Positions 2,053 to 64,000 of a stretch of DNA of 64,000 bases are shown here, piece after piece; the stretch's first letter is position 1; each line of letters starts with the position of its first letter. A model generated the notes under the pieces. The model ran no database searches. It saw only the letters and a list, made by a program, of their open reading frames with translations, and was not told where the DNA came from. A program made the position numbers and the translations under genes. Origin of the DNA: a virus; IMG/VR virus record IMGVR_UViG_3300035034_002798, positions 1 through 64,000 of that record. One strand, 5' to 3'.

Positions 2053-3210
2053 CTAAAAACACCTATATCCTTGGCCAAGGTCTTCTTCTTTTGGCGGACG
2101 AGTATTTTGATAATTACCTAGATGTTCTGTACCCGGGATAGCACCCGTTCCGTAAAATCTACATTTATTCTTACAGTTTTCGCAGGCTGTTATCTGTCTT
2201 TGGTTCAACATATCTAACTGATATCCCATACATCCACCCTGACATGTGCTGCTTAACCTTGCTGTGCACTCTTTGCAATCATCCTTATGAACAGCAAACC
2301 TGTGTCTATCAACTGTATGTTGAAAAAAGTCAACAGCATCCCCTAATGTGGTAAAGTCTCTTACGTTAACATTTGTAAGTGCTGCGGTAGAATAACATCT
2401 AGTGATTGTTAAATCATACTCTACATCTAAAGCCACCTTGCATTTTTGTCTCTCAAGTACTTCTGGTGCTACTTTAACTATCTTTCTTAAGTCATCATCT
2501 TCCATAACACATGGTAAAAAGGGAGTACAGTCTGTCACAAATTCTTTTATACCAGCCTTTTTACACTCAAGAATGAAATCTGCGGCCACAGGTAGCATGG
2601 TTTCATGATGATTCAATCCGGTCTCCCAATCAGAAGGTACTATATCCTGATCCAGTTTATTTTCATCAGGATCACCTGGACTAGTAATAGCCCATCTTGC
2701 CTTGTATATTCTACCTTTTGGAACTTTTTCTATCATATCAAAGAAATGAGAAGTATCCTGTTCTGGATCATATAAGTTGAGGCCTAGCACAACTCTTGCC
2801 TTAGTCTTTTCTGTTAGTGCGAGGATGTTTCTGTCTATAGTTTCAGCATAATTTTCAGTAACATCTTCGTTATTATAATTTATAGTAAAGATCATCTTTT
2901 TTTGAAGTTCTTCTGGCACTGAAAGGAAAACATCTAATATACCTTCATTGAATGCAGCATTAGTAAATAATACTACCTTATCAAAAAACGGATCATATAC
3001 TACCTTTTCGTAGAACTCTTTAAACTTTGGATGGATTGTTGGCTCTCCTCCAAATATTTTAAATACTCTATGGTTTGAACGTTTGAAGAATTTAATTGCA
3101 AAATCATAATCTTCTTCACTCATTCTTAATTCTGGGTCCTTAGACTCTCCGTTTGGAGCAAAACAGTACGGACAGTCTAAGTTACAGTTTTGAGTTATTG
3201 CTAAATTCAA
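2053..3210 (-). CDS. radical SAM protein with C-terminal Cys cluster (copy 1)
   Basis: This 385-residue enzyme has CNLDCPYC at about residues 9-16, GGEP near residue 54 and the same C-terminal Cys array as its downstream neighbour (CKEC, CQGGC, CENCKNKC). The pair align over their whole length, including the FYGTGAIPGTEHL segment. This copy has about 16 extra residues at its C-terminus (ending GQGYRCF). A tandem duplication is the simplest origin. A small helical gene lies upstream and the beta clamp gene beyond it. The substrate is unknown; peptide or protein modification is the family-based guess. Confidence 0.85.
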   Translation of the reverse strand: MNLAITQNCNLDCPYCFAPNGESKDPELRMSEEDYDFAIKFFKRSNHRVFKIFGGEPTIHPKFKEFYEKVVYDPFFDKVVLFTNAAFNEGILDVFLSVPEELQKKMIFTINYNNEDVTENYAETIDRNILALTEKTKARVVLGLNLYDPEQDTSHFFDMIEKVPKGRIYKARWAITSPGDPDENKLDQDIVPSDWETGLNHHETMLPVAADFILECKKAGIKEFVTDCTPFLPCVMEDDDLRKIVKVAPEVLERQKCKVALDVEYDLTITRCYSTAALTNVNVRDFTTLGDAVDFFQHTVDRHRFAVHKDDCKECTARLSSTCQGGCMGYQLDMLNQRQITACENCKNKCRFYGTGAIPGTEHLGNYQNTRPPKEEDLGQGYRCF

Positions 3211-8861: not shown

Positions 8862-9422
8862 TTAATAATCGTATTCTACTATCTCACCCTGTTCTAGGCT
8901 TTTATTAATGTCTATAACTCTTTGATTTGAGCTACCTACAAACTTAAAGTTTCCAATCTCGAGTTTATTTTCTTTCTGAAATTCTCCATCTACCAAAATA
9001 TCTACAGATTCAATTAACTTCCTAGCCTCTTCAAAATAATCTGCCAGGTTATCACCCATTAAATCTTCATATTTATAGCCGGTATAACTTAATACTGTAA
9101 AATCATGTTCGTGCAGTATGTCAGCTATCTTAGCCAGCTGTCCTGCCCACAACATCGGTTCACCACCGCAAAAAGATACTTTTTTGTTGGGAGTATTTTC
9201 TATAAGATCAGCTGCAAGTTCTTCAACAGTGAGTTCTTTCCCACCACTAAGTTCCTGCAAGGATTCATTGAAGCAGTTTTCGCAAGACTTATAACATCCC
9301 TGAACATATATTGTAGTTGTTGGCCATGGTCCGCCAATCTTGTTTTTGTACTTTACACCGCCTAATCTTATTCTGTCTTTATACTTGACACCTTCTAATC
9401 CTGTTTTATTAGATTCCAACAT
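8862..9422 (-). CDS. nrdG: anaerobic ribonucleotide reductase activating protein
   Basis: This is a radical SAM enzyme that makes the glycyl radical on the class III ribonucleotide reductase NrdD, so that dNTPs can be made without oxygen. It shows the cluster motif CYKSCENC, the SAM motif CGGEPM, then VLSYTGYKYEDL, VDILVDGEF and the C-terminal SSNQRVIDI, all typical of NrdG. The N-terminus has a short in-frame duplication (GVKYKDRIRLGGVKYKNKI). No nrdD lies in this window, so the partner is elsewhere on the element or in the host. It supports an anaerobic lifestyle. Confidence 0.85.
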   Translation of the reverse strand: MLESNKTGLEGVKYKDRIRLGGVKYKNKIGGPWPTTTIYVQGCYKSCENCFNESLQELSGGKELTVEELAADLIENTPNKKVSFCGGEPMLWAGQLAKIADILHEHDFTVLSYTGYKYEDLMGDNLADYFEEARKLIESVDILVDGEFQKENKLEIGNFKFVGSSNQRVIDINKSLEQGEIVEYDY

Positions 9423-9603
9423 CAAGCTCCTTTCCGCATTCTACGCATATTATTTTGTGTCTAACATCTTTTACAGGTACTTCTTCGTAGTGCTTTAACT
9501 TCTTGTGATCCGTTGATATTTTGATCTCTTCTTCTTTCCTAAAATACTTAGAATCACAATCTTCACCTTCGCACCGATAAATACCAGTTTCATGAGTAAG
9601 CAT
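9409..9603 (-). CDS. zinc ribbon protein, 64 aa
   Basis: Two Cys pairs are visible, CEGEDC near residue 11 and CVEC near 54, fitting one zinc site that joins N- and C-terminal strands. The ATG overlaps the stop of the nuclease gene upstream (TAATG) and the end overlaps nrdG. It is probably a small metal-binding accessory protein; the target is unknown. Confidence 0.65.
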   Translation of the reverse strand: MLTHETGIYRCEGEDCDSKYFRKEEEIKISTDHKKLKHYEEVPVKDVRHKIICVECGKELDVGI

Positions 9604-24317: not shown

Positions 24318-24621
24318 TTAGAATTATAGGTCGAGCAGGATTTTAACCTGCCTACCGGTTACCCTCGTCTTATTAATTACGGTGGGGCGGCGTTTCCCAC
24401 ATCTCTTTTTATAACCTTAATCTAATTGCTATCATAAAAGTTAATGTTGATTTATTTCAGTGCTTACCAAAAGAATAAGGTAGTGATAGTTGCCCGTTCT
24501 ATCCTCGTAGTTAATTAGACTTCGGATTTTGTATTTACATTCCGACCATTAGTAAAAATGAGAGGGAGGTTTCCTATTGCAGTTAAGAAAGAGCCGGCTA
24601 AAGCTCGACTACCTCCCCCGA
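24318..24621 (-). ncRNA. candidate structured RNA / leader upstream of recA operon
   Basis: About 300 bp without an ORF. Read on the minus strand, GGGAGG near 24617 pairs with CCTCCC near 24570. Within that loop GAGC/GCTC forms a hairpin, and farther on TCGGA/TCCGA, GATAG/CTATC, TACC/GGTA and GTGGG/CCCAC stems follow. Near the 3' end GCAGG-TTAAAAT-CCTGC looks like a tRNA T-arm, but its loop has A where C56 is expected. TCGAGC near the 5' end can pair with GCTCGA at the 3' end, closing the whole element. No match to RNase P, tmRNA or a group I intron could be made by eye. Confidence 0.55.
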
Positions 24622-24679: not shown

Positions 24680-25135
24680 TTAAAATGGAACATCTACATT
24701 ATTTTGGTTGGGATTAGAGTTCTGGTTGTAGTTTCCTTGATTATTGTTCTGCTGATTGTTGCGCTGGTTGTTATTGCGTTGATTGTTCTGCTGATTATTG
24801 TTCTTCCCACTATTTTTAGCAGAATCTAAAAACTCAACGTTATTTGCTCTTACTTCAATCCAGGTCTTTTTATCTCCACTTCTGTCGTTATAGGAGTCTA
24901 CTCTGATTGCACCATTTACTGCCACTTTACGTCCTTTATTCAGATACTGATTTACTGTGCCTGCAAGTTTCCCCCAGCATACAATAGGTACAAAATCTGT
25001 ACCCTGTTCTCCATTAGAGTCAGTGTACGGTCTATCTGCCGCCAGTCTGAAATTGGCCTTTGGAGTGTTGTTATTTCCAACCTCCTGATATTCTGGGTCT
25101 GCTGTCAACCTACCGATTAAATTAATGTTATTCAT
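24680..25135 (-). CDS. ssb: single-stranded DNA-binding protein (copy 1)
   Basis: This 151-residue SSB has the OB-fold (1 to about 105, with NLIGRLTADPEYQEVG and FVPIVCWGKLA), a Gln/Asn-rich linker and the acidic tip DVPF that recruits replication and repair enzymes. A second, diverged ssb is at 42248-42712. SSB protects the template during replication and binds RecA- and DnaE-linked factors. Downstream is a terminator, then the structured RNA. Confidence 0.93.
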   Translation of the reverse strand: MNNINLIGRLTADPEYQEVGNNNTPKANFRLAADRPYTDSNGEQGTDFVPIVCWGKLAGTVNQYLNKGRKVAVNGAIRVDSYNDRSGDKKTWIEVRANNVEFLDSAKNSGKNNNQQNNQRNNNQRNNQQNNNQGNYNQNSNPNQNNVDVPF

Positions 25136-39555: not shown

Positions 39556-39606
39556 CTACACCCCTCCTTAAATAAGAAAACCATCTCGATATGAGATGGC
39601 TATAAA

Positions 39607-39954
39607 TTATGCAGCTTCCTCAACTACAGTATCTTCTTCTGGTTTTTCTTCTGTCTCCTCGACCTCTTCTGTCTCCTCGACCTCTTCTAGTTCCTCAATC
39701 TCATTCACATATTCCTGCTCTCGACCAATTTCTTTTTTCCTTTTGATCATACCAAGAATGGTATCTTTAGTTACTGTCTTTTCAATCTCGATTCTTTCGA
39801 ATTCAAAGATGCTTTTTACCGAGATGGTATCTTTAATTTCATCTTCTTTAATCTTAAACTTTTCGATAAAATTATCTTTGGCCTCATCTTTATCAACTCC
39901 GTAAATTGAAGACTTATATCCTGGTTTGCTGCATTTAACGTTATATTTTGGCAT
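39607..39954 (-). CDS. acidic protein with Glu-rich repeat tail
   Basis: The 115-residue protein starts with a small alpha/beta domain (MPKYNVKCSKPGYKSSIYGV, FIEKFKIKEDEIKDTISV) and ends in a Glu/Val/Thr repeat (LEEVEETEEVEETEEKPEED), whose DNA is a short direct repeat. The tail may be a flexible acidic linker or DNA mimic. It is separate from rtcB by 10 bp. Confidence 0.55.
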   Translation of the reverse strand: MPKYNVKCSKPGYKSSIYGVDKDEAKDNFIEKFKIKEDEIKDTISVKSIFEFERIEIEKTVTKDTILGMIKRKKEIGREQEYVNEIEELEEVEETEEVEETEEKPEEDTVVEEAA

Positions 39955-39964
39955 AAACTCACTC

Positions 39965-41215
39965 CTAACCTTTAATGACTGCTCTAGTTTTCATCTTATC
40001 TATTGGTTTTATTAAATCACTTTGCTGATCTATTACATTATGGATATCTTTATAAGCTCCCTTATATTCTTCAGTGATATCCTGTTTATTTTCTTTACCC
40101 AGGACTATGTTGTTAGCCTTGAGGTCTTCAATAACCTCTTGAACAGTGAATTCTTCTCGGGCTGCTGTTCTGGTATGTGTTCTACCTGCTCCGTGACTAC
40201 AGCTTTTAAAAGAGTCTTCATTGCCTAATCCCTCACAAATATAACTATAAGTACTCATTGAACCGGGTATAGGGATTATTTCTCCTTTTCTAGCTCTTAC
40301 CGCACCTTTACGGTGCACCATATAATTCTTTCTATCTATATTTTCATACGCTGCATAATTGTGATGGACATTCACATCAGTTTCAACATCATATCCATCA
40401 AAATCAGTATATTTAGTAATAGATTTTAATAATTTCTTTTCTGCTAACTTCATTATTTCTTCTCTATTAATCTCTGCAATTTCAAGAGCGAAGTTCATCC
40501 ATTTTAAGTAATCCTGACCTTCTTCAGAGTATAAAGGTAAAAAGGGTAGATTAACATTATCTGATAAAACATCAACATACCACTTCTTATTAAGTTTTTT
40601 AGCAAGATTACTAAAGTGCTTGTTTACCTTAGCTCCCACATTGCGGCTGCCGGTGTGAAGCATTATCCCAAGTTTTCCGTCTTTATTTTCTTGCAATTCC
40701 AGAAAATGGTTGCCGCCCCCAAGAGTTCCAACAACTTCAAAAGATTCTTTAACTGCATCTTCTAGGGGTGTGTTTTCTATTGCACCCGGGCCACCATCAA
40801 AGTCGTGAATTGCATTAAGTATTCTCATATTATCTTTATTTAACTCTGGATCTTTATGTTCAAACCCTGTAGGAAGGTCACGCATAATAGAACCTACAAG
40901 TTGTTGAGCAAGACTGCCAGAACCGGTCTTAACATCTAAGACTTCTATAGGTAGATTGGTTTGCTTAAAAGCAACGCCGCAGCCTATGTCACTAGACACA
41001 GCGGCAGGTATAATCACATCTTCAGTAGCAATAACACCACCAACAGGCATCTTAAAGCCGGTAGCGTGACAATCTGCCATTAATGCTATATGAGATTTAG
41101 CAAATGGTAAATCAGCTATAGCAAATGCTTCTTCCAGAGTAGTATCTTCTATCTGCATACTTCTTTCAAGCCAGACTTTTATGTCGACTCCTCTTTCATT
41201 TCTTATATTAAACAT
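39965..41215 (-). CDS. rtcB: RtcB RNA ligase
   Basis: This GTP- and Mn-dependent ligase joins 2',3'-cyclic phosphate ends of RNA, repairing or splicing tRNA. It has 416 residues from the ATG at 41215 (AGGAGCG upstream). Key sites are ADCHATGFKMPVGG, AVSSDIGCGVAF, LGGGNHFLELQ, MLHTGSRNVG and SHGAGRTHTR, the last with the His that becomes guanylylated. Archease is not seen. Phages can use RtcB to repair tRNAs cut by host anticodon nucleases. Confidence 0.92.
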   Translation of the reverse strand: MFNIRNERGVDIKVWLERSMQIEDTTLEEAFAIADLPFAKSHIALMADCHATGFKMPVGGVIATEDVIIPAAVSSDIGCGVAFKQTNLPIEVLDVKTGSGSLAQQLVGSIMRDLPTGFEHKDPELNKDNMRILNAIHDFDGGPGAIENTPLEDAVKESFEVVGTLGGGNHFLELQENKDGKLGIMLHTGSRNVGAKVNKHFSNLAKKLNKKWYVDVLSDNVNLPFLPLYSEEGQDYLKWMNFALEIAEINREEIMKLAEKKLLKSITKYTDFDGYDVETDVNVHHNYAAYENIDRKNYMVHRKGAVRARKGEIIPIPGSMSTYSYICEGLGNEDSFKSCSHGAGRTHTRTAAREEFTVQEVIEDLKANNIVLGKENKQDITEEYKGAYKDIHNVIDQQSDLIKPIDKMKTRAVIKG

Positions 41216-41216
41216 T

Positions 41217-41705
41217 CTAGGCGCTCCTCTCTTGTGTTCCTGCAAATTCTTCGCGTGCCTGAAGATGAATTCTTAAATCCATCAGGTGCTTACCGAGATG
41301 ATTCTTACCCTCTTTATCGGTATTGGTGGCATTACCCCAATAGTCATCTCCCCAAAAATTAGTTTCTTCTAGATAAGCATCTCCAGTATCTAAAAGTCTT
41401 TGTGTGAGCTCGGGGTTTTGAGTAAATTTCTCGTAAAGCCCCTTCTTCATAACATCATGCTTTAAACCATCATCCCAGTCATCTCTTAATTTTACCTGTC
41501 TACCAATTTTTTTAGCTTCTCCAGGGCTGTCAAGATTTGAGATATACTTTCTTTTATTTAAGTCAAGAGTTTTCATTGCCTGGAAGAAATGTTCGTTTGT
41601 GGGGTAATAGATACCTCTAAACTCAAAACCGTATTCACTAAAATTGCTTAAAAAATTATATGGGCCCTCAAAACCTTCTACTTTAATATCACTAATATGA
41701 ATCAC
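41217..41705 (-). CDS. NADAR-domain protein
   Basis: The 162-residue protein has the NADAR (YbiA-like) signature: GPYNFLSNFSEYGFEFRGIY, then YPTNEHFFQAMKTLD, ISNLDSPGEAKKIGRQVKLR and KKGLYEKFTQNPEL, with the final YWG-type motif (FWGDDYWGNATN). NADAR enzymes cleave N-glycosidic bonds, including ADP-ribose on guanine, and can reverse DarT-type DNA modification. It sits one base from rtcB and 3 kb from a macro-domain gene, so an anti-ADP-ribosylation role is plausible. Confidence 0.85.
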   Translation of the reverse strand: MIHISDIKVEGFEGPYNFLSNFSEYGFEFRGIYYPTNEHFFQAMKTLDLNKRKYISNLDSPGEAKKIGRQVKLRDDWDDGLKHDVMKKGLYEKFTQNPELTQRLLDTGDAYLEETNFWGDDYWGNATNTDKEGKNHLGKHLMDLRIHLQAREEFAGTQERSA

Positions 41706-41708
41706 TCC

Positions 41709-42137
41709 TTAGAATGGTACTTTTACTTCTCTAAATAAATGGTTTTCTTTCTGCCTTTCTACAAATTTATCTATTTTTCTCATAGTTAGGTGTTCCATTT
41801 CTCGCGGGGACAATCGACTTGTGAATTTACATTCTGGATAGTTAGTACAACCCCAAAATCTCTGGTCATCTCTTTTATTGATTTTAGGTACTAGTTCACC
41901 ATCCTCACAACTTGGGCAGGTGTGATCGGTAAATACTTTTAAGTTGTAAAATGTTATAATATAGTCTTTTATTAGTTCCTGTCTTTTATCAACCATATTT
42001 ATACCAGAGTCTAGAACCACTTCTGCACCGCACTTGGGACAACGTGGTATATAATCTTCTTCTGAAGTCCCTATCCAAAACTTTTCCTCACAAGAAGGGC
42101 AATCATATTCATAAACGACCTGTTTATCTGATTTCAT
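41709..42137 (-). CDS. topoisomerase-type zinc ribbon protein
   Basis: The 142-residue protein has three zinc modules: CPSCEEKFWIG...CPKCGAEV, then CPSCEDGELVPK...FWGCTNYPECKF. The last has the layout of the C-terminal zinc finger of topoisomerase IA. No topoisomerase domain is attached. The function may be DNA binding or protein recruitment. It has its own promoter at 42176-42204. Confidence 0.7.
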   Translation of the reverse strand: MKSDKQVVYEYDCPSCEEKFWIGTSEEDYIPRCPKCGAEVVLDSGINMVDKRQELIKDYIITFYNLKVFTDHTCPSCEDGELVPKINKRDDQRFWGCTNYPECKFTSRLSPREMEHLTMRKIDKFVERQKENHLFREVKVPF

Positions 42138-42175
42138 ATAGGCCCTCCTTTTCTGTAATTCAATAATGTAATATC

Positions 42176-42204
42176 AGTATATCATTTAGTAATACAAAAA
42201 TCAA
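42176..42204 (-). promoter_or_regulatory. extended -10 promoter with GTATTAC site
   Basis: TTGATT, 17-bp spacer containing TTTGTATTACTAAATGA, then TATACT. The same TGA-TATACT core is seen at 12.35, 30.8 and (as TACACT) 51.1 kb. It starts the 42.1 to 39 kb transcript, just after a terminator. Confidence 0.75.
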
Positions 42205-42216
42205 ATGCTAAAATAA

Positions 42217-42233
42217 GGGGGCGGGAAGCCCCC
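42217..42233 (-). terminator. terminator between ssb copy 2 and the zinc-ribbon operon
   Basis: GGGGGC-ttccc-GCCCCC followed by TTATTTT on the minus strand. It sits 14 bp after the ssb stop and directly before the promoter above, isolating two transcripts. Confidence 0.85.
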
Positions 42234-42247
42234 AGTATTAGAGTTTA

Positions 42248-42712
42248 TTAAAAAGGTACATCCTTGTCATTACCATTGTTATAGTTTTGAGCCTGGCTGG
42301 CGTTCTGTCTCTGGTTAGGTGCAACCTGTTGCTGATTTCTGTATTGCTGTTGCTGGCCATTGTTCTGCTGATACTGATTGTTCTGGTTGTTACCGTTATT
42401 CTTATTAGGTGAATCTAAAAACTTCACGTTATCAGCCACAAACTCGTGACCGTATTCTTTCTCGCCATTCTTTTCAGTTACATAAGAACGATAACTACAC
42501 TCTACGGCAACTAAACGGCCTTTGCTGAGGTGTTTTGCACAAATCTCTCCAAGACCGTTCCAAGCTGAGATAGGAGGATAGTCAACAGGTCTGTCACCAT
42601 TATCGTCGCTGTAATTTCTTTCAACAGCCAAAGTCATCAAGGTCTTATTGCGTCCGTTTACAGTAAATACGTTAGGGTCCCTTACTAATCTTCCCACAAA
42701 TGTTGTACTCAT
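42248..42712 (-). CDS. ssb: single-stranded DNA-binding protein (copy 2)
   Basis: The 154-residue protein has an OB-fold (TTFVGRLVRDPNVFTVNGRN, YPPISAWNGLGEICAKHLSK), a long Gln/Asn-rich linker and the acidic tip NDKDVPF. It is clearly paralogous to, but diverged from, the ssb at 24680-25135 (for example the C-rich AEICAKHL segment). One copy may serve replication and the other recombination or a different ssDNA form. Confidence 0.9.
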   Translation of the reverse strand: MSTTFVGRLVRDPNVFTVNGRNKTLMTLAVERNYSDDNGDRPVDYPPISAWNGLGEICAKHLSKGRLVAVECSYRSYVTEKNGEKEYGHEFVADNVKFLDSPNKNNGNNQNNQYQQNNGQQQQYRNQQQVAPNQRQNASQAQNYNNGNDKDVPF

Positions 42713-42754
42713 AAAATTCCACTCTCCTTAAAGTTTTTTAGTTTAATGTTATGC

Positions 42755-43186
42755 CTATACAGCCTGTCTTTTAAGCTTAGACTCCTCATAGTAATCAATA
42801 AACATATCTTTATTAGATTCTGACATAAAAAAGCTTTCAATTTCCTCACAAATACTTATTATATTAAGGTGACTGCCTGCCACACTTGATTTAGACATTC
42901 CTGAGACAACAGGAGAGGAATCTATATCCTCTAAAATTCCCTCGTGAACCTCTTTTTCAACAGCGATAAACTTAAGTACAGTGTTTATAAAATCCCTACC
43001 AGTATCCTTAAAATTGTGATTATTATACACTTCATAATAGTTATCGAGTATCATCTTATTCTCAACTAGAAACTCATAGAAGTTCCTAAGCTGTAATAAT
43101 CTGATATCCTGTATCTTTTGACCAGAAGTCTCATCTAACATTTGATTGTAATCAGATAAAACTGAATCTATAATATCTCCAATCAT
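42755..43186 (-). CDS. helical hypothetical protein, 143 aa
   Basis: This is a fully helical protein with segments DYNQMLDETSGQKIQDIRLL, NFYEFLVENKMILDNYYEVY and ICEEIESFFMSESNKDMFID. It begins after a strong AAAGGAGGTGAAT site. It follows the 43262 hairpin. The family is not recognised. Confidence 0.55.
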   Translation of the reverse strand: MIGDIIDSVLSDYNQMLDETSGQKIQDIRLLQLRNFYEFLVENKMILDNYYEVYNNHNFKDTGRDFINTVLKFIAVEKEVHEGILEDIDSSPVVSGMSKSSVAGSHLNIISICEEIESFFMSESNKDMFIDYYEESKLKRQAV

Positions 43187-43261
43187 CTAATTCACCTCCT
43201 TTAGAGTAAATTAATTGTAAAAAAGAAAAATGTTTATTTAATCTAATTTAAACGAGCTGGA

Positions 43262-43305
43262 ATAACCAAGACTGTCAAATGGTTTTCTTGACAGTTGCCG
43301 GTTAT
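43262..43305 (-). repeat. intercistronic hairpin element
   Basis: Perfect outer stem ATAACC/GGTTAT, then ACTGTCAA/TTGACAGT with loop GAAAACCAT (minus strand). The internal loop is GGCA against CTTG. This copy shares its inner stem with the 44.9 kb member but has a different outer stem. It is about 75 bp before the 43186 start. Confidence 0.9.
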
Positions 43306-43323
43306 GGAAGCATTCTTTTGAAC

Positions 43324-43428
43324 TTATTGGAGAAAGTCAGTGAAAATACTAAAAAGCGATTTAAACTTATTTAGCTTAGTCAGTAATTTATGTTTTTTAT
43401 CATCTTTTTCTCTATACAGCGCAATCAC
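43324..43428 (-). CDS. possible small basic protein, 34 aa
   Basis: A short frame overlaps the end of radC by 17 bp, with AGGAG near the GTG. The product ends LYREKDDKKHKLLTKLNKFK plus SLFSIFTDFLQ, a basic-amphipathic peptide. The start codon (GTG or a CTG) is poorly placed, so the call is weak; alternatively this is a chance frame. Confidence 0.25.
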   Translation of the reverse strand: MIALYREKDDKKHKLLTKLNKFKSLFSIFTDFLQ

Positions 43429-43891
43429 TCCTAATATCGAATTTTATTTCTGGATAATCTCTTTTAATTGAGGTATAATTTTTGGTACTTACTACAAGAT
43501 GGTCAATAATCGGAATATTAAGCAGAATACCTGCTTCTATTAAATTCTCAGTAACTCTGATATCATCATCACTTGGCGTACTGCGGTCACTTGTGTGGTT
43601 ATGCGCTAGAACAATTGCCGTTGCATTCATCAAAATAGCGGCCTGAAAAACACTTGAGGTATCAAATATTGCTTTATTGATAGAACCTCTTGAAATTTCC
43701 ATATAACCTATGACATTATTGTTATTATTTAGTCCTACAGCAACCATTATTTCTTTTGGCCGAAGGTCTAATTCGACCTCTCTTACCAGAAAATCATAAA
43801 AACTTGTGGGATCAGTTACCTTATATTCAGCAGACATTTCTTTTTCCTTGACTGGTTTCAATCTCAAGTCATATTCTTTTATCACTCTCAT
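43412..43891 (-). CDS. radC: RadC/JAB-domain protein
   Basis: The 159-residue protein has the JAMM metalloprotease-type motif AHNHTSDRSTPSDDD (HxHx7Sx2D) preceded by QAAILMNATAIVLAHNHTSD and the glutamate-bearing VREVELDLRPKEIM region. RadC proteins of mobile elements are linked to DNA repair, but the substrate is uncertain. The N-terminal HhH domain of full RadC is absent, as in many phages and plasmids. Confidence 0.85.
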   Translation of the reverse strand: MRVIKEYDLRLKPVKEKEMSAEYKVTDPTSFYDFLVREVELDLRPKEIMVAVGLNNNNNVIGYMEISRGSINKAIFDTSSVFQAAILMNATAIVLAHNHTSDRSTPSDDDIRVTENLIEAGILLNIPIIDHLVVSTKNYTSIKRDYPEIKFDIRSDCAV

Positions 43892-43903
43892 ATTTTCTCC
43901 TTT

Positions 43904-44221
43904 CTAAAAAGGGCAGGTACTTATAGTCTCATTATCTACCTGTACCTGCCGCTCTTTTAAGTCATCATGGTCTGCACGCTGGCCCGGGCCATTGCAACTT
44001 GTCTTATAGATAGAACAATTAGAACAAGAATCAAGGCCGAGAGTAGAGGCCATCTCAACAGTTTTTTGATACGTCTCACAATCCGCCTCACAACAGGGCG
44101 TATCAATATAGCAATTATCACACTTTTTTGAACGTATTTTTCTAAAGTGGCTTGGATGTGAGTCTAGATTGTGTAAAGTTGAGGTGCGGCTAAAAGTCTT
44201 CGGTGGTTTAATCATATACAT
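43904..44221 (-). CDS. Cys-rich protein, 105 aa
   Basis: From MYMIKPPKTFSRTSTLHNLD (AAAGGAG upstream) it contains CDNCYIDTPCCEADC and CSNCSIYKTSC, about eleven Cys residues with the last in TCPF. The clusters could bind Fe-S or zinc. No family can be named. The earlier in-frame starts lie in the ribosome site. Confidence 0.6.
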   Translation of the reverse strand: MYMIKPPKTFSRTSTLHNLDSHPSHFRKIRSKKCDNCYIDTPCCEADCETYQKTVEMASTLGLDSCSNCSIYKTSCNGPGQRADHDDLKERQVQVDNETISTCPF

Positions 44222-44309
44222 CGGAGCTCCTTTACCGATAGTATCCACCTTCTTTGTAGTATGCAGTGTGTTGCCAAAATAACATATTATTACCCCCTGT
44301 ATTGTCTGT

Positions 44310-44440
44310 TTAATCTGGTTTTATTGTTTCTATTTTTTCATCACTGATATCCTGATTGCAGTACGGACAAATCCACTCCCCCCCTTTTTTCTTGAGCTGT
44401 AAGATTTATCACCACATTCGGGACATTTTTTCATATACAT
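44310..44440 (-). CDS. zinc ribbon gene with a -1 frameshift site
   Basis: GGAGGTGAGG precedes the ATG at 44440. Frame 0 reads MYMKKCPECGDKSYSSRKKG and then loses protein character, ending at 44330. At AGA-AAA-AAG the heptamer A-AAA-AAG, the classic -1 slippery site, is followed by seven G. A -1 shift gives GEWICPYCNQDISDEKIETI then KPD, stop at 44310, completing a CxxC...CxxC ribbon of 43 residues. Either programmed frameshifting, transcript slippage or a sequencing error explains it. Confidence 0.6.
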
Positions 44441-44452
44441 TTTCCTCACCTC

Positions 44453-44905
44453 CTACTTTAATGAATAAATATAAAGTTGCTTATCTGATTCAGAATATAC
44501 GTGTTTTATTATATTCTTAACTTTATTCCAGTCGCCGCCGGCAAGGCCGCAACCGATGAATTTCGGGATAGCAACAGCTCCTTCAAAGCTGTCTCTTAAC
44601 TTAATAAGACATATCTGGAGTGCTTGATAGTCCGTGTATCGTTTATCTCTGCCATATCCATACTGACTAAACATATTGACAACTGCTTTATCGTTCTCAG
44701 TTTCAATTACCTGTATCTTACCTAATAGATCGTCAACCTTATCGTGAGCCATCTTATATTGAGCAAAAACTTCTGGATAGGAGTTTTTTATCTGTTTTGC
44801 AAGTCCTGCACCCATCACACCCTTGCAATTAACCTGGTGAGCGATGGCAACTACATCATCTCTATTGAAAGCACTTAGTAAATCTCCTTTAATATTAGTG
44901 AACAA
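44453..44905 (-). CDS. macro-domain protein
   Basis: This about 150-residue protein has a macro domain with the pattern NIKGDLLSAF, HQVNCKGVMGAGLAKQI and FIGCGLAGGDWNKVKNI, typical of ADP-ribose-binding hydrolases of the Poa1p/TARG1/DarG group. Likely activity: removing or binding ADP-ribose groups on nucleic acids, proteins or phosphate. The TTG at 44905 is the preferred start, 9 bp after AAGGAG; an upstream TTG overlaps the site. The 44937 hairpin lies in its leader. A NADAR gene is 3 kb downstream. Confidence 0.82.
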   Translation of the reverse strand: MFTNIKGDLLSAFNRDDVVAIAHQVNCKGVMGAGLAKQIKNSYPEVFAQYKMAHDKVDDLLGKIQVIETENDKAVVNMFSQYGYGRDKRYTDYQALQICLIKLRDSFEGAVAIPKFIGCGLAGGDWNKVKNIIKHVYSESDKQLYIYSLK

Positions 44906-44936
44906 ATGAACCAACTCCTTAAAATATTTTATTAAT

Positions 44937-45009
44937 CTACCCTAAATAAACCGAAAACGACCAAGACTGTCAAATGGTTTTCTTGACAGTAGCCGGCCGT
45001 TGTAGGTAG
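44937..45009 (-). repeat. intercistronic hairpin element
   Basis: Outer CTACC/GGTAG, then AACGACC/GGCCGTT (one G-T pair on the minus strand) around ACTGTCAA/TTGACAGT and loop GAAAACCAT. It starts 4 bp after the PcfJ-like stop and ends about 30 bp before the macro-domain start. Full member. Confidence 0.88.
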
Positions 45010-59988: not shown

Positions 59989-60390
59989 TTATCTTAGTAG
60001 TCTATGCTTTCTCATGTTCTGAAAACATTCTTCGCAGACATATTTTTCTTTTGCTGGTATTAAATCATAACTACCAGTCCTATCCTTTTCACAGACAACA
60101 CATTCATCTTTTTCAAACTCTATTGAAACCGAACCGTCATCATTAACAAAGGTGCTATAATTTTGACCATTACTTAGTTCGAACAATTCAATTATGGTGT
60201 CTGGTATCTCTAGGGTATTACCAATGGCCTCACTGCTAAATTCCTCATTGCAGCTCACACACATAAGAGTACTACCACATTCTCTTCTTAATACTTTAAG
60301 CGATAGGTCACCTGTTATGTTTATACATCTACTACCTGTTTCCCCTTGAAGCTCTACAGTGTTGTCCAACATAACCGCCTTAAATCCCAT
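59989..60390 (-). CDS. zinc-binding protein, 133 aa
   Basis: The ATG at 60390 is chosen; the open frame upstream only translates the tandem 51-bp repeats. Cys pairs at CVSCNEEF near 43 and the CVVCEKD and CEECFQN pairs near 97 and 120 fit zinc sites, joined by an acidic middle. The protein is alone on the minus strand between par and the radical SAM operon. AAGGAG lies 12 bp upstream, within the last repeat. Function unknown; a small regulator is possible. Confidence 0.6.
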   Translation of the reverse strand: MGFKAVMLDNTVELQGETGSRCINITGDLSLKVLRRECGSTLMCVSCNEEFSSEAIGNTLEIPDTIIELFELSNGQNYSTFVNDDGSVSIEFEKDECVVCEKDRTGSYDLIPAKEKYVCEECFQNMRKHRLLR

Positions 60391-60543
60391 CTTTAAATTC
60401 AACTCCTTAATCGTTTGATATATTATTGATCTTCTCCTGTTCTTTAAATTCAACTCCTTAATCGTTTGATATATTATTGATCTTCTCCTGTTCTTTAAAT
60501 TCAACTCCTTAATCGTTTGATATATTATTGATCTTCTCCTGTT
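60391..60543. repeat. three tandem 51-bp repeats
   Basis: Identical or nearly identical units begin at 60391, 60442 and 60493. Each carries AAGGAGTTG in minus-strand sense, so each could supply a ribosome site for the zinc gene. Copy number change would alter the leader or add 17 residues per copy if read through. Confidence 0.9.
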
Positions 60544-60575
60544 CTTATAATCAAAAAATTATCAACATAATCTAT

Positions 60576-60673
60576 GTTATCATGATAACTTAGTCTTTAA
60601 AAGAACTTTTTTTATTCGACAAATTAAGACAAATAATGCTCGTATACCGTGATAACAGGTTATATATTATCAC
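60576..60673. promoter_or_regulatory. GATAAC palindromes (candidate operators)
   Basis: GTTATCATGATAAC at 60576-60589 is a perfect 14-bp palindrome, and GTGATAA...TTATCAC at 60649-60673 repeats its half-sites with wider spacing. They lie between the divergent zinc gene and radical SAM operon, so could control both. Confidence 0.55.
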
Positions 60674-60761
60674 AAGTTTTTTCATATTAAAAGGATAAAT
60701 GCACAAACATCTGTTTTTTTAACGTAAAAAACGGGATTTGGTTAGGAATCCCAGTCTCTAC

Positions 60762-60792
60762 TTGGCAAAACACCCTCTAAAATGCGTATTAT
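60762..60792 (+). promoter_or_regulatory. TTGGCA-19-TATTAT promoter of the radical SAM operon
   Basis: TTGGCA, 19 bp, TATTAT, then ATATAATAGAAG. ATTTGGTTAGGA lies about 15 bp upstream. Same arrangement at 62.8 and 50.7 kb. The start codon is about 40 bp downstream, behind GGGGGAGAA. Confidence 0.75.
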
Positions 60793-60833
60793 ATATAATA
60801 GAAGATAATTTAATTTTAACAAGGGGGAGAAGT

Positions 60834-62048
60834 ATGTTATTAGTTAAACCAGTACTAAAATGCGATTTAAACTGCGATTATTGTTACGAACACCAGGAAG
60901 GACTTTTAGAATCAGATAAGTCCAATGTAGAAACTGATATAGAACTAATGAAAGAGTCGATAGAAAAACATCATGAAAGATTTGGCAATAGAGATGGGAT
61001 CACAATCCACGGTGGTGAGCCGCTACTGCTTCCGATAGACGAGTTAGAAGAATTGATTAGATTTTCAAACGAGATTCTGGATAAAAACGATCTAGGAAAA
61101 AAAGTAGGAATCCAAACAAATGGAAATCTTATCACCGATGAGCATGTAGAATTATTTAAAAAACATGATGTTGGTGTTGGAATTTCTTTTGATGGATTCG
61201 GTGACTTGAATGATCTAAGAGGTTATCCAGATGTTGAAAGAACAAAAGAATACACTAACAGACTTGAAGATACTCTTAAAAAACTGGTAGATGCTGGTGT
61301 ACGCCCAGGTTTTATTTCCGTATTGCACCAAGGTAATGTTGGCACTGATGAAAAATTAGACAAGTTTTTAAACTTTTTAAGAAGATTAGAAGAAGAATTT
61401 GATATTACAGGTGGTAGGTTAAACCTTGCATTCATAGATGGAGATACTCCAGAAATAGAACTAAGTAGAGAGAGAGCTGCAATAGTTTATGAAAGACTAG
61501 CTGAATACGTCCTGAGTTCGCCTCGTAGAAGATATAATCCTTTTAGGGAATTTGCTGACAACTTAATGGGATACGGATTAGGCTGCTGCACTCAAACAAA
61601 GTGCGAACCTTTCAAAACACCAGCAGGCAGGGTTGTATTACCAGACGGAGACCTTTCTACGTGTGTAAAACAGGTAGATGAAGGCGGTAATCCAATTCCT
61701 TTTGATGATAATAGTTTTACTGGTAGACATGAGTTATTATTACAGAAAGACTGCCAAGGATGCCGTTTCTTCAAGGTGTGTTACGGTGGTTGTCCAGGAA
61801 GAGCAAGAGACGATGATTATATGAGAAAAGATCATTATTGTAAAGCAACTTTTAAAACTTATGCTTACATCACAGAGAGAATGCAGTCCATGTTTCCACA
61901 TATAGACCTAGTAGTAGATGAACCGATAAGAATAGAAGATGAACATAAAGATTACAGAAATAGATCCGGCAGAAACAGTAAGCACAATCCATTCAAGAGA
62001 ATGCATGCTCAAAGATCTTTATTTGACAGCAGTAAATTAAATAGATAG
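60834..62048 (+). CDS. radical SAM/SPASM peptide-modifying enzyme
   Basis: The 404-residue enzyme has the cluster motif CDLNCDYC near residue 11, then HGGEPLL (SAM site) near 63. Its C-terminal SPASM-like region has many Cys (CCTQTKC, CVKQ, CQGCRFFKVCYGGCPG, HYCKATF), enough for two auxiliary Fe-S clusters. Such enzymes (anSME and RiPP maturases) cross-link or modify peptides. Two His/Asp-rich repeat peptides follow directly. Its C-terminus has QRSLF, a possible clamp-like tail. The frame's TTG start 96 bp upstream is inside the promoter. Confidence 0.88.
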   Translation: MLLVKPVLKCDLNCDYCYEHQEGLLESDKSNVETDIELMKESIEKHHERFGNRDGITIHGGEPLLLPIDELEELIRFSNEILDKNDLGKKVGIQTNGNLITDEHVELFKKHDVGVGISFDGFGDLNDLRGYPDVERTKEYTNRLEDTLKKLVDAGVRPGFISVLHQGNVGTDEKLDKFLNFLRRLEEEFDITGGRLNLAFIDGDTPEIELSRERAAIVYERLAEYVLSSPRRRYNPFREFADNLMGYGLGCCTQTKCEPFKTPAGRVVLPDGDLSTCVKQVDEGGNPIPFDDNSFTGRHELLLQKDCQGCRFFKVCYGGCPGRARDDDYMRKDHYCKATFKTYAYITERMQSMFPHIDLVVDEPIRIEDEHKDYRNRSGRNSKHNPFKRMHAQRSLFDSSKLNR

Positions 62049-62065
62049 AGAAAGAAGGTGCTAGG

Positions 62066-62395
62066 ATGGGAGGACATACAGACTACCCCCATGATAATTG
62101 GGGGGTAGATTCTGATAGACTAAAAGGAGAAAACGTAAAAGACGCCAGGGATATCAAAAATAATGATAGTAAGTTCAGAGGGAATGTGGTAGATAACGAC
62201 GCAAAGCAAAGCAACCATATTCCAGAAAATGACGACAAGGCAAGGTGGACACATTTCGACCACAGTGATTACACAGACACTCATCGGGATTATGGTTATG
62301 ATGTTTATACAAATACCGGTCATGATGACCACACAAATAGTGGCCACGACGATCACACAAATTCTGGGCATGATACACATACTGACAGAGGTTAG
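62066..62395 (+). CDS. candidate RiPP precursor 1, His/Asp repeat peptide
   Basis: The 109-residue peptide starts 17 bp after the radical SAM stop. The first about 68 residues are a charged leader. The C-terminal part contains an octapeptide repeat: GHDDHTNS twice, then GHDTHTDR, preceded by HSDYTDTHRDYGYDVYTN. It is poor in hydrophobics, without Cys. The short motifs HTN, HTD, YTD and HSD are aromatic-X-Asn/Asp triplets as in cyclophane (triceptide) substrates. Function unknown; metal binding by His is also possible. Confidence 0.65.
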   Translation: MGGHTDYPHDNWGVDSDRLKGENVKDARDIKNNDSKFRGNVVDNDAKQSNHIPENDDKARWTHFDHSDYTDTHRDYGYDVYTNTGHDDHTNSGHDDHTNSGHDTHTDRG

Positions 62396-62426
62396 TAATA
62401 TCAAAAGAAGATAGAGGTGATTTAAT

Positions 62427-62744
62427 TTGGGATATGATTTATATGTAGATGATTACGCTAAATATGATAAAACAGGATCTTATGATGCTGGATCATACGG
62501 GGACGGTCATTCGGACGACTCTGGTAGTGGTTATAGTGATGATGGTGGTTATAGCGAGTCAAGTCATGATACTCACAGCGATCACGATACGCACAGCAAC
62601 TATGGTCATGATACGCATTCAAATTACGGCTATGATGATCATAATGACAATGGTAGTCACGATAACCACACAGACGGAACCTACAATCAGCATACAGATG
62701 CTCCCCACGACAATAGTCACAGCGATTCTCCAGATTTATGGTAG
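62427..62744 (+). CDS. candidate RiPP precursor 2, His/Asp repeat peptide
   Basis: The 105-residue peptide (TTG start after AGAGGTGATT) has a Gly/Ser/Tyr/Asp-rich head and a C-terminal array of octapeptides: HDTHSNYG twice, then YDDHNDNG, SHDNHTDG, TYNQHTDA, PHDNSHSD, ending SPDLW. It resembles precursor 1 in repeat length and composition, but differs in sequence, so the two diverged. It is in the same operon as the radical SAM gene. Confidence 0.65.
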   Translation: MGYDLYVDDYAKYDKTGSYDAGSYGDGHSDDSGSGYSDDGGYSESSHDTHSDHDTHSNYGHDTHSNYGYDDHNDNGSHDNHTDGTYNQHTDAPHDNSHSDSPDLW

Positions 62745-62798
62745 ATTATTTTCTTTTAACAAGAAAAACTGGAAATGGTTAGGAAAATCTTTTTCGAC

Positions 62799-62829
62799 TT
62801 GGCAAAACACCCCCTAAAACGGGTATTAT
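62799..62829 (+). promoter_or_regulatory. TTGGCA-19-TATTAT promoter, second right-end copy
   Basis: TTGGCA, 19 bp, TATTAT, with TGGTTAGGAAA upstream. Very similar over about 75 bp to the 60.76 kb promoter. It drives the zinc-ribbon and following genes. Confidence 0.75.
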
Positions 62830-62879
62830 ATATATAGAAGCACATTTAAATAAAGGCGTGCTTACAGGAGTGACAACGG

Positions 62880-63038
62880 ATGAAATGCAACAAATGCCAC
62901 AGCAATGTTCAGAAAATATTACTAGACAATAGGAAAAAGCCCAGCATGTATGCATATTACTGTAGTAACTGCGGCAATTTCTGGGTTAAGTTAGAAAATG
63001 ACGATGATAAGGATAGTCAGAGCAGGGAAAACTCATAA
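62880..63038 (+). CDS. small zinc ribbon protein, 52 aa
   Basis: GGAG lies 8 bases before the ATG. MKCNKCHSNV and YYCSNCGNFWVKL give CxxC...CxxC about 25 residues apart, the form of a zinc ribbon as in small late-transcription or DNA-packaging factors. An acidic tail follows. Function unknown. Confidence 0.65.
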   Translation: MKCNKCHSNVQKILLDNRKKPSMYAYYCSNCGNFWVKLENDDDKDSQSRENS

Positions 63039-63090
63039 ACCAGCCTGGAGCTCGGCTATCCTTCATATATAGATTATGGAGGTTGAAGTT

Positions 63091-63753
63091 ATGAGCGATT
63101 CTCAAGAAGTTATAGAACAAGAAGCAGAAGACAACTATCCCAGTGAATGGAATCTCTCAGAAGAGGGGAAGAGAAATATAGCCCACGCAAAGACAGAGCA
63201 ACAGGTTAAGCACGGTCTTTATGCCGGCATACCTATGATATGTCTTGATGATAAATGTCCTTACAAGGAGACGTGTGGCTATTACAAAAACGATAATGCC
63301 CCAGAAGGAGAGCGTTGTCCAAAAGAGATCGCAAAAGTATTAGACCTTTATGAGAAATACAGTAAACAAATGGGTTTAGAAAGTAAAGACATGGTTGAAT
63401 TATCACTGCTTAAAGAGGTAATAGACCTTGACATAAAAATAGACAGGGCTGACAGGAAACAGGCGGCTGATCCAGATTTAATTAATGATGTGCCGGTAGC
63501 TGTTAGTGATTCTGGTAAGGTAATCAGAAAGCCAGAGATCAATAAAGTAGCTGAGTTAAAAGATAAGCTATTAGATAGAAGACATAAGATATTAAGTTAC
63601 CTGAATGCAACACCAAAAGACCAATCAGCTGATAAACTCGAGATATCTCAGGATCCAAGTACTTATGCTGCCAAGCTTCTGAAAAAGAAGCAGGAATCAG
63701 AAAAGGAAAAGACTGTTGAGATAGAGGCAGAGTCGGAAGCTGAAGAAGAATAA
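63091..63753 (+). CDS. possible small terminase-like or packaging-associated protein
   Basis: The 220-residue protein has an acidic start, a Cys cluster (MICLDDKCPYKETCGYYKND, then ERCPKEIAKV), a long helical middle (MVELSLLKEVIDLDIKIDRA) and a basic-to-acidic end. A metal-binding head plus helix bundle in this place would fit a small terminase subunit, but this is tentative; no large terminase is visible in the window. The second ATG at 63091 is chosen because GGAGG lies 8 bp upstream. Confidence 0.4.
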   Translation: MSDSQEVIEQEAEDNYPSEWNLSEEGKRNIAHAKTEQQVKHGLYAGIPMICLDDKCPYKETCGYYKNDNAPEGERCPKEIAKVLDLYEKYSKQMGLESKDMVELSLLKEVIDLDIKIDRADRKQAADPDLINDVPVAVSDSGKVIRKPEINKVAELKDKLLDRRHKILSYLNATPKDQSADKLEISQDPSTYAAKLLKKKQESEKEKTVEIEAESEAEEE

Positions 63754-63833
63754 ATCATTCCCTAGTCTTTTCAATAAATTTTTATAGATTGATACAAACC
63801 AAATTAAATCCCTCGCAACAAATACTCCCTCCA

Positions 63834-63864
63834 ATAGGAGTGCCCTCATGAGTGGTACTCCTAT
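63834..63864. other. hairpin before the last gene
   Basis: ATAGGAGT-(15-base loop)-ACTCCTAT forms a stable stem about 28 bp before the next start. It may be an attenuator or processing site. The 63754-63833 stretch has no ORF. Confidence 0.6.
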
Positions 63865-63891
63865 AACACATCCATTCAAGGAGGCTTTCCA

Positions 63892-64000
63892 ATGAAAAGA
63901 CAATTAGACGAAAACAGATTAGTAGATGTATATGTTCACAATAGACTGGATGAGATCATTATCTCCAGAAAGAACACTCAGGAGGAGATAAATCAAAGGA
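63892..64000 (+). CDS. partial protein cut by the right edge
   Basis: GGAGG precedes the ATG at 63892. Thirty-six codons are visible (MKRQLDENRLVDVYVHNRLD then EIIISRKNTQEEINQR). The helical, charged start gives no family. The gene continues past the window. Confidence 0.7.
   Translation, partial: MKRQLDENRLVDVYVHNRLDEIIISRKNTQEEINQR

Follow-up and report, generated by a model that had tools for sequence, protein, structure and literature searches.

The first 64,000 nucleotides of the 170,948-bp IMG/VR record IMGVR_UViG_3300035034_002798 (positions 1-64,000, the window) encode an RtcB RNA ligase, a NADAR ADP-ribosylhydrolase and a stand-alone macrodomain, all three intact and on the minus strand. 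On balance we regard them as three separate damage-reversal enzymes in the replication and accessory region of a large phage. The NADAR and RtcB genes probably form part of one transcription unit, and the macrodomain gene is likely its upstream neighbor. The initial annotation had placed the three genes at 39965-44905, and their matches to Pfam and PHROG families bear this out, the 39965 end being correct. It had further suggested that they make up a single counter-defence block able to undo both RNA cleavage and ADP-ribosylation, which holds in part, as set out below.

The three predicted enzymes and their active sites

The RtcB gene (39965..41215) encodes 416 amino acids from ATG 41215. Its open reading frame (ORF) occupies 39965-41245 and would give 426 amino acids from TTG 41245, but the TTG-started form overlaps the NADAR gene. 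The ATG, which has a ribosome-binding-like gagaggag a short way 5′ of it, is probably the true start and the TTG wrong. The domain is full length, with PF01139 covering positions 4-426 of 426 (1.1e-93), and the protein also matches phrog_1075 (1.6e-95). Residues D48, D76, C79, N169, H170, E173, H187, H285, H341, R345, and K415 are all identical in P. horikoshii RtcB. These positions comprise metal ligands, the guanylylated His and GMP-contacting residues, and in the alignment the active site is intact at every position mapped. RtcB uses GTP to join 2′,3′-cyclic phosphate to 5′-OH ends, the products of metal-independent anticodon nucleases, and yields no ADP-ribose by-product. The nearest relative is the RtcB of IMG/VR phage L023 (3300033747_000022, 203.6 kb), which is 63% identical and shares the stretch HATG[FY]xMPVGGV. 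A single-sequence scan of viral contigs returned no confirmed relative, and an alignment-based scan was needed to reach relatives. Scans for the subclade recovered L023 alone among viral contigs and nothing in bacterial or archaeal genomes.

The NADAR gene (41217..41705; PF08719 1.1e-28, phrog_1017 3.1e-41) has an uncertain start codon, GTG 41705, which abuts ggag. E38, K45, and E114 do not vary among 17 viral NADARs, and their equivalents are experimentally catalytic (PMC11543638). The alignment of catalytic residues proposed at the outset as a check thus came out in favor of both RtcB and NADAR. The solved structure closest to the AlphaFold2 (AF2) model (pLDDT 93.5) is that of E. coli YbiA (2b3w, TM 0.81, 37% identity in the structural match), and the model also matches PDB 8bau. 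The phage protein and YbiA have the NADAR fold and the Glu-Lys-Glu set in common, whereas the phage gene adjoins RtcB and K-12 ybiA lies in a LexA-controlled operon (PMC11125620). A published scheme sorts NADARs by their last residue into YbiA, DarT1-linked and gp30.3 types (PMC11125620). Because its last-strand residue is E114, the phage protein is assigned by sequence to the YbiA type, with a predicted catalytic set that is kept. The DarT1-linked type (BC4488) was rejected, as Leu rather than Asp stands two residues before E114 and no ADP-ribosyltransferase was found in the scanned ORFs. The phage gp30.3 type was rejected as well, given Glu114 instead of His and a PF08010 score of 23.6 against a cut-off of 36 bits. 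In vitro, YbiA-type and phage NADARs release ADP-ribose from modified guanine in both DNA and RNA (PMC11125620, PMC11833690). E. coli YbiA hydrolyzes ADP-ribosylated guanine in vitro, yet fails to protect cells against DarT1 (PMC11125620), rescue among tested NADARs being confined to DarT1-linked and EPEC sigma70-linked proteins (PMC11125620, PMC11833690).

The macrodomain belongs to the DarG/TARG1/SCO6735 class (PF01661 3.6e-6, phrog_335 1.7e-43). Its gene spans 44453..44914 or 44905; the likely start is TTG 44905, which lies 3′ of aaggag, and residues are numbered here from TTG 44914. The 153-amino acid protein matches the PADLOC DarG model at positions 5-144 of 329 (2.9e-22). The best PDB matches to its AF2 model (pLDDT 84.5) are DarG 5m3i, 5m3e, and 2fg1, and the structural matches include DarG, Bt_1257, TARG1, and SCO6735. 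Asn29 and Gln84 are conserved and correspond to Asn27 and Gln85 of SCO6735, which needs both residues and removes thymidine ADP-ribosylation (PMC9411070). The fold is that of the SCO6735/Bt_1257 subclass of ALC1-like macrodomains, and Gln84 sits at the position of the DarG catalytic Lys80 (equivalence from PMC9411070). However, the phage protein has Gln27 at the position of SCO6735 Val25, lacks both Lys80 and the C-terminal domain of DarG, and lacks Lys84 and Asp125 of TARG1. The length of the SCO6735-type extended mobile loop is not clearly assignable in the alignment, and model confidence is lower around residues 81-90. A role as DarG antitoxin was rejected, as there is no catalytic Lys, no C-terminal DarT-binding part and no neighboring darT. 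No ADP-ribosyltransferase, DarT included, was found in the scanned ORFs of the record, and membership of the macrodomain and NADAR genes in DarTG was rejected on residues and the missing toxin. The connection to DarT-like toxins drawn in the initial annotation is therefore weak with respect to the YbiA-type NADAR and the absence of the DarG Lys, although the SCO6735-like Gln active site would be compatible with removal of ADP-ribose from thymidine (PMC9411070).

Gene order and linkage across viruses

The description of a single block applies to NADAR and RtcB. The RtcB ATG lies 1 nucleotide past the NADAR stop, and both genes belong to a four-gene minus-strand unit, in the order zinc-ribbon protein, NADAR, RtcB, and a 115-amino acid protein, with predicted terminators on both sides. 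The first gene (41709..42137), whose ATG is preceded by aaggagg, encodes a zinc-ribbon or Top1-type C4 zinc-finger protein (PF01396 8.5e-15), and the last (39607..39954) is an ORF without a family match. The upstream boundary is a terminator-like hairpin after the SSB gene (42217..42233, GGGGGCttcccGCCCCC then TTATTTT) and the downstream boundary a further terminator-like hairpin (39579..39601), both on the minus strand. A promoter-like site 5′ of the zinc-ribbon gene (42176..42204, minus strand; TTGATT-17-TATACT with an extended -10) is a consensus match that does not rise above the shuffle background. Because the unit is bounded by terminator-like hairpins and the two genes nearly abut, NADAR and RtcB are probably co-expressed and translationally coupled.

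The description does not extend to the trio. Two terminator-like hairpins (43295-43271 and 42233-42217) part the macrodomain gene from the NADAR-RtcB unit, and from this arrangement the macrodomain gene is likely an upstream neighbor outside the unit. The terminator-like sites are pattern matches, nine being found against 4.5 ± 2.1 in shuffles, and single sites are not certain. Between the macrodomain gene and NADAR lie genes for a 114-amino acid protein, a RadC-like JAB-domain protein (43412..43891, minus strand; PF04002 1.6e-31), a 143-amino acid protein, SSB (42248..42712, minus strand; PF00436 1.6e-18) and, within the unit, the zinc-ribbon protein. Three random points would fall this close together with a probability of about 0.001-0.007, a figure that applies to a trio picked after the fact.

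Conserved co-occurrence, which had been proposed as a further check, was not found. Within a linkage window of 6 kb, NADAR accompanied RtcB at 1/80 viral RtcB loci (L064, 3 kb off, in a different phage type), and a macrodomain at none of the 80. RtcB accompanied NADAR at 0/81 viral NADAR loci, nine of which had a macrodomain within the same distance, several of them near-identical contigs. In whole records, NADAR was present in 2 and a macrodomain in 3 of 30 RtcB records, while the 38 IMG/VR NADAR records included 1 with RtcB and 13 with a macrodomain; many records are fragments, and all of these counts are lower bounds. We do not claim an enrichment of macrodomains in NADAR over RtcB records (13/38 vs. 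3/30, p = 0.023), the value for records of at least 80 kb being p = 0.21. A conserved RtcB-NADAR-macrodomain module is not supported. The pairing that recurs is NADAR with a macrodomain rather than RtcB with NADAR: in several viral contigs (L011, L013, L014, L015, L114, and L168) the genes of the recurrent pair are no more than approximately 4 kb apart, twice in one 402-kb record.

The virus itself is a large tailed phage, as judged from the large terminase, portal, capsid, DNA polymerase III alpha subunit, primase, clamp, and RecA encoded in the unique part of the record, together with seven tRNA genes. Its named kin by terminase are Moorella phage MTATph1 (42%), Bacillus phage KLEB27-3 and Acinetobacter phage ME3, and L023 is a further relative (terminase 42-47%). 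Near-identical phages were looked for and none was found, and by its terminase the lineage appears only distantly related to MTATph1 and KLEB27-3. L023 has a macrodomain 30 kb from RtcB, different RtcB neighbors and no detected NADAR. In KLEB27-3, NADAR is present, the macrodomain match is short and weak and no RtcB was found, while ME3 has NADAR and a macrodomain and, again, no RtcB was found. Because these phages keep different subsets, the trio is put together differently in each phage, out of a shared gene pool.

The record structure and other elements

In the record, a stretch of 85,474 bp is duplicated perfectly in inverted, head-to-head orientation, position i mirroring 170,949-i. Mirroring was exact wherever tested, namely at RtcB, at 1-2000, at 60000-64000 and over 1,500 bases either side of the center (85474/85475), the turning point lying inside a patatin-like ORF. 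Each of the three genes is therefore also present in a mirror copy within the full record. A real duplication of the block was rejected because the record mirrors exactly around 85,474 within an ORF, and the inverted duplication is likely an assembly artefact. The unique part then comprises 85,474 bases, and the genome is probably incomplete.

A hairpin with the core GTCAAGAAAACCATTTGAC occurs seven times on the minus strand, at 52682-52664, 49854-49836, 47849-47831, 44987-44969, 43292-43274, 36115-36097, and 17360-17342. Those copies that were compared with the gene table are intergenic and upstream of a start codon. One element copy lies just upstream of the macrodomain gene (44960..44996), and the terminator-like hairpin at 43295-43271 doubles as another. 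The flanking stems vary among copies and are mostly still complementary (84% of cells paired); nine cells are changed on both sides, a level that 0/500 shuffles reach. The hairpin, which was not found in the other fetched loci, may be an RNA or regulatory element particular to this phage.

Elsewhere, an Rfam skipping-rope RNA (RF02924, 58.6 bits, E 1.9e-11) lies at 24374-24513 on the minus strand near RecA and SSB genes, and two different SSB proteins are encoded (24680-25135 and 42248-42712). Four radical-SAM proteins (943-2052, 2053-3210, 8862-9425 on the minus strand, and 60738-62048 on the plus strand) seem an unusual number. A nucleoside 2-deoxyribosyltransferase-like protein (PF05014 1.3e-10; 9132-9539 of contig L009, record 73132-73539) is encoded directly before the portal gene and is possibly a further nucleotide- or ADP-ribose-related enzyme, in the virion-gene region.

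Proposed roles and rival explanations

Taken gene by gene, the counter-defence role suggested in the initial annotation is a reasonable and probably the best reading, and one already proposed for phage RtcB, NADAR, and Macro in two surveys (PMC7824862, PMC9503650); for the genes as a set it falters, since their linkage is not conserved. tRNA repair is the natural reading of RtcB because the enzyme seals ends of the kind that metal-independent anticodon nucleases produce (PMC7824862). RtcB most likely reseals host tRNAs, or those of the phage, which encodes at least seven, after host RNases that leave 2′,3′-cyclic phosphate and 5′-OH ends have cut their anticodon loops. The likeliest substrate of NADAR is ADP-ribosylated guanine in nucleic acid, or else a small ADP-ribose derivative that it would split, and the likeliest substrates of the macrodomain are thymine, protein or RNA phosphate carrying ADP-ribose. 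The products of the small NADAR-RtcB gene cluster are probably made together, each acting on a different lesion. We favor three separate enzymes, and leave the NADAR substrate open, because few NADARs rescue cells from DarT1 and one survey argues that phage NADAR and Macro act mostly on small ADP-ribose derivatives (PMC9503650). The retention of both RtcB and a macrodomain in the nearest kin, L023, speaks for this reading. Weighing against it are the rarity with which RtcB and NADAR are found together, at loci as in whole records, and the unique 85 kb, which is probably only part of a larger genome. Moreover, the substrates of NADAR and the macrodomain could instead be metabolites (for NADAR, those of riboflavin metabolism) or ADP-ribose groups attached by the phage itself, although no ADP-ribosyltransferase turned up in the scanned ORFs.

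Among the rivals, a housekeeping role aimed at no particular defence has a modest chance of being correct: RtcB would mature or seal phage tRNAs or other RNAs, NADAR and the macrodomain would clear small molecules, and their proximity within the accessory region would be accidental. The other genes of the region serve replication and accessory functions (SSB, RadC-like), and the families are common, macrodomains of this class occurring in at least 2,778, NADAR in 478 and RtcB in 651 of 50,697 phage records. However, no introns that would need splicing are reported in the seven tRNA genes, and repair genes kept by phages are usually read as conflict-driven (PMC9503650). That the three genes evolved as a dedicated set against host ADP-ribosylation and RNA cleavage is unlikely. 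Their closeness and the NADAR-RtcB coupling fit such a module, while the linkage counts, the different subsets kept by kin phages and the two predicted terminators that set the macrodomain apart speak against it. A narrower version, in which the coupled NADAR and RtcB carry out a two-step repair, removing ADP-ribose from guanines of damaged tRNA or other RNA and then sealing the cut strand, against a host defence combining ADP-ribosylation with cleavage of RNA, strikes us as quite improbable. As RtcB yields no ADP-ribose by-product, the chemistry offers no ready reason for the coupling.

Two further proposals have very little chance of being right. ADP-ribose-dependent RNA end repair of the KptA type, with the macrodomain and NADAR clearing ADP-ribose by-products, has been put forward for other phages (PMC9503650, section 3.7.3). 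It was rejected here on the chemistry of RtcB, which works with GTP on cyclic-phosphate ends, and on finding no KptA, sirtuin or polynucleotide kinase in the scanned ORFs. Similarly, a phage-borne toxin-antitoxin or defence system resembling DarTG is suggested by the match of the macrodomain to the PADLOC DarG model, but DarT or any other ADP-ribosyltransferase is missing nearby, as are the C-terminal part of DarG and the Asp of DarT1-linked NADARs.

As three separate damage-reversal enzymes, the genes resemble the NAD+/ADP-ribose and RNA-repair genes of medium and jumbo phages in domains, kind of virus and proposed role, and in DNA viruses NADAR and Macro are found together (PMC7824862, PMC9503650). 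The probable direct coupling of NADAR to RtcB seen here is not described in the passages of those surveys that treat these genes. A literature search for phage RtcB in an anti-defence role found nothing beyond one of the two surveys and a bacterial-regulation preprint. At present, this virus is one more large phage in a pattern already proposed, with an arrangement of NADAR and RtcB that may be new, as a single case. If the genes work as predicted, the phage would be able to undo host-inflicted damage of several chemically distinct kinds, and the coupling of NADAR to RtcB may hint that ADP-ribosylation of RNA bases and RNA cleavage are met together in infection.

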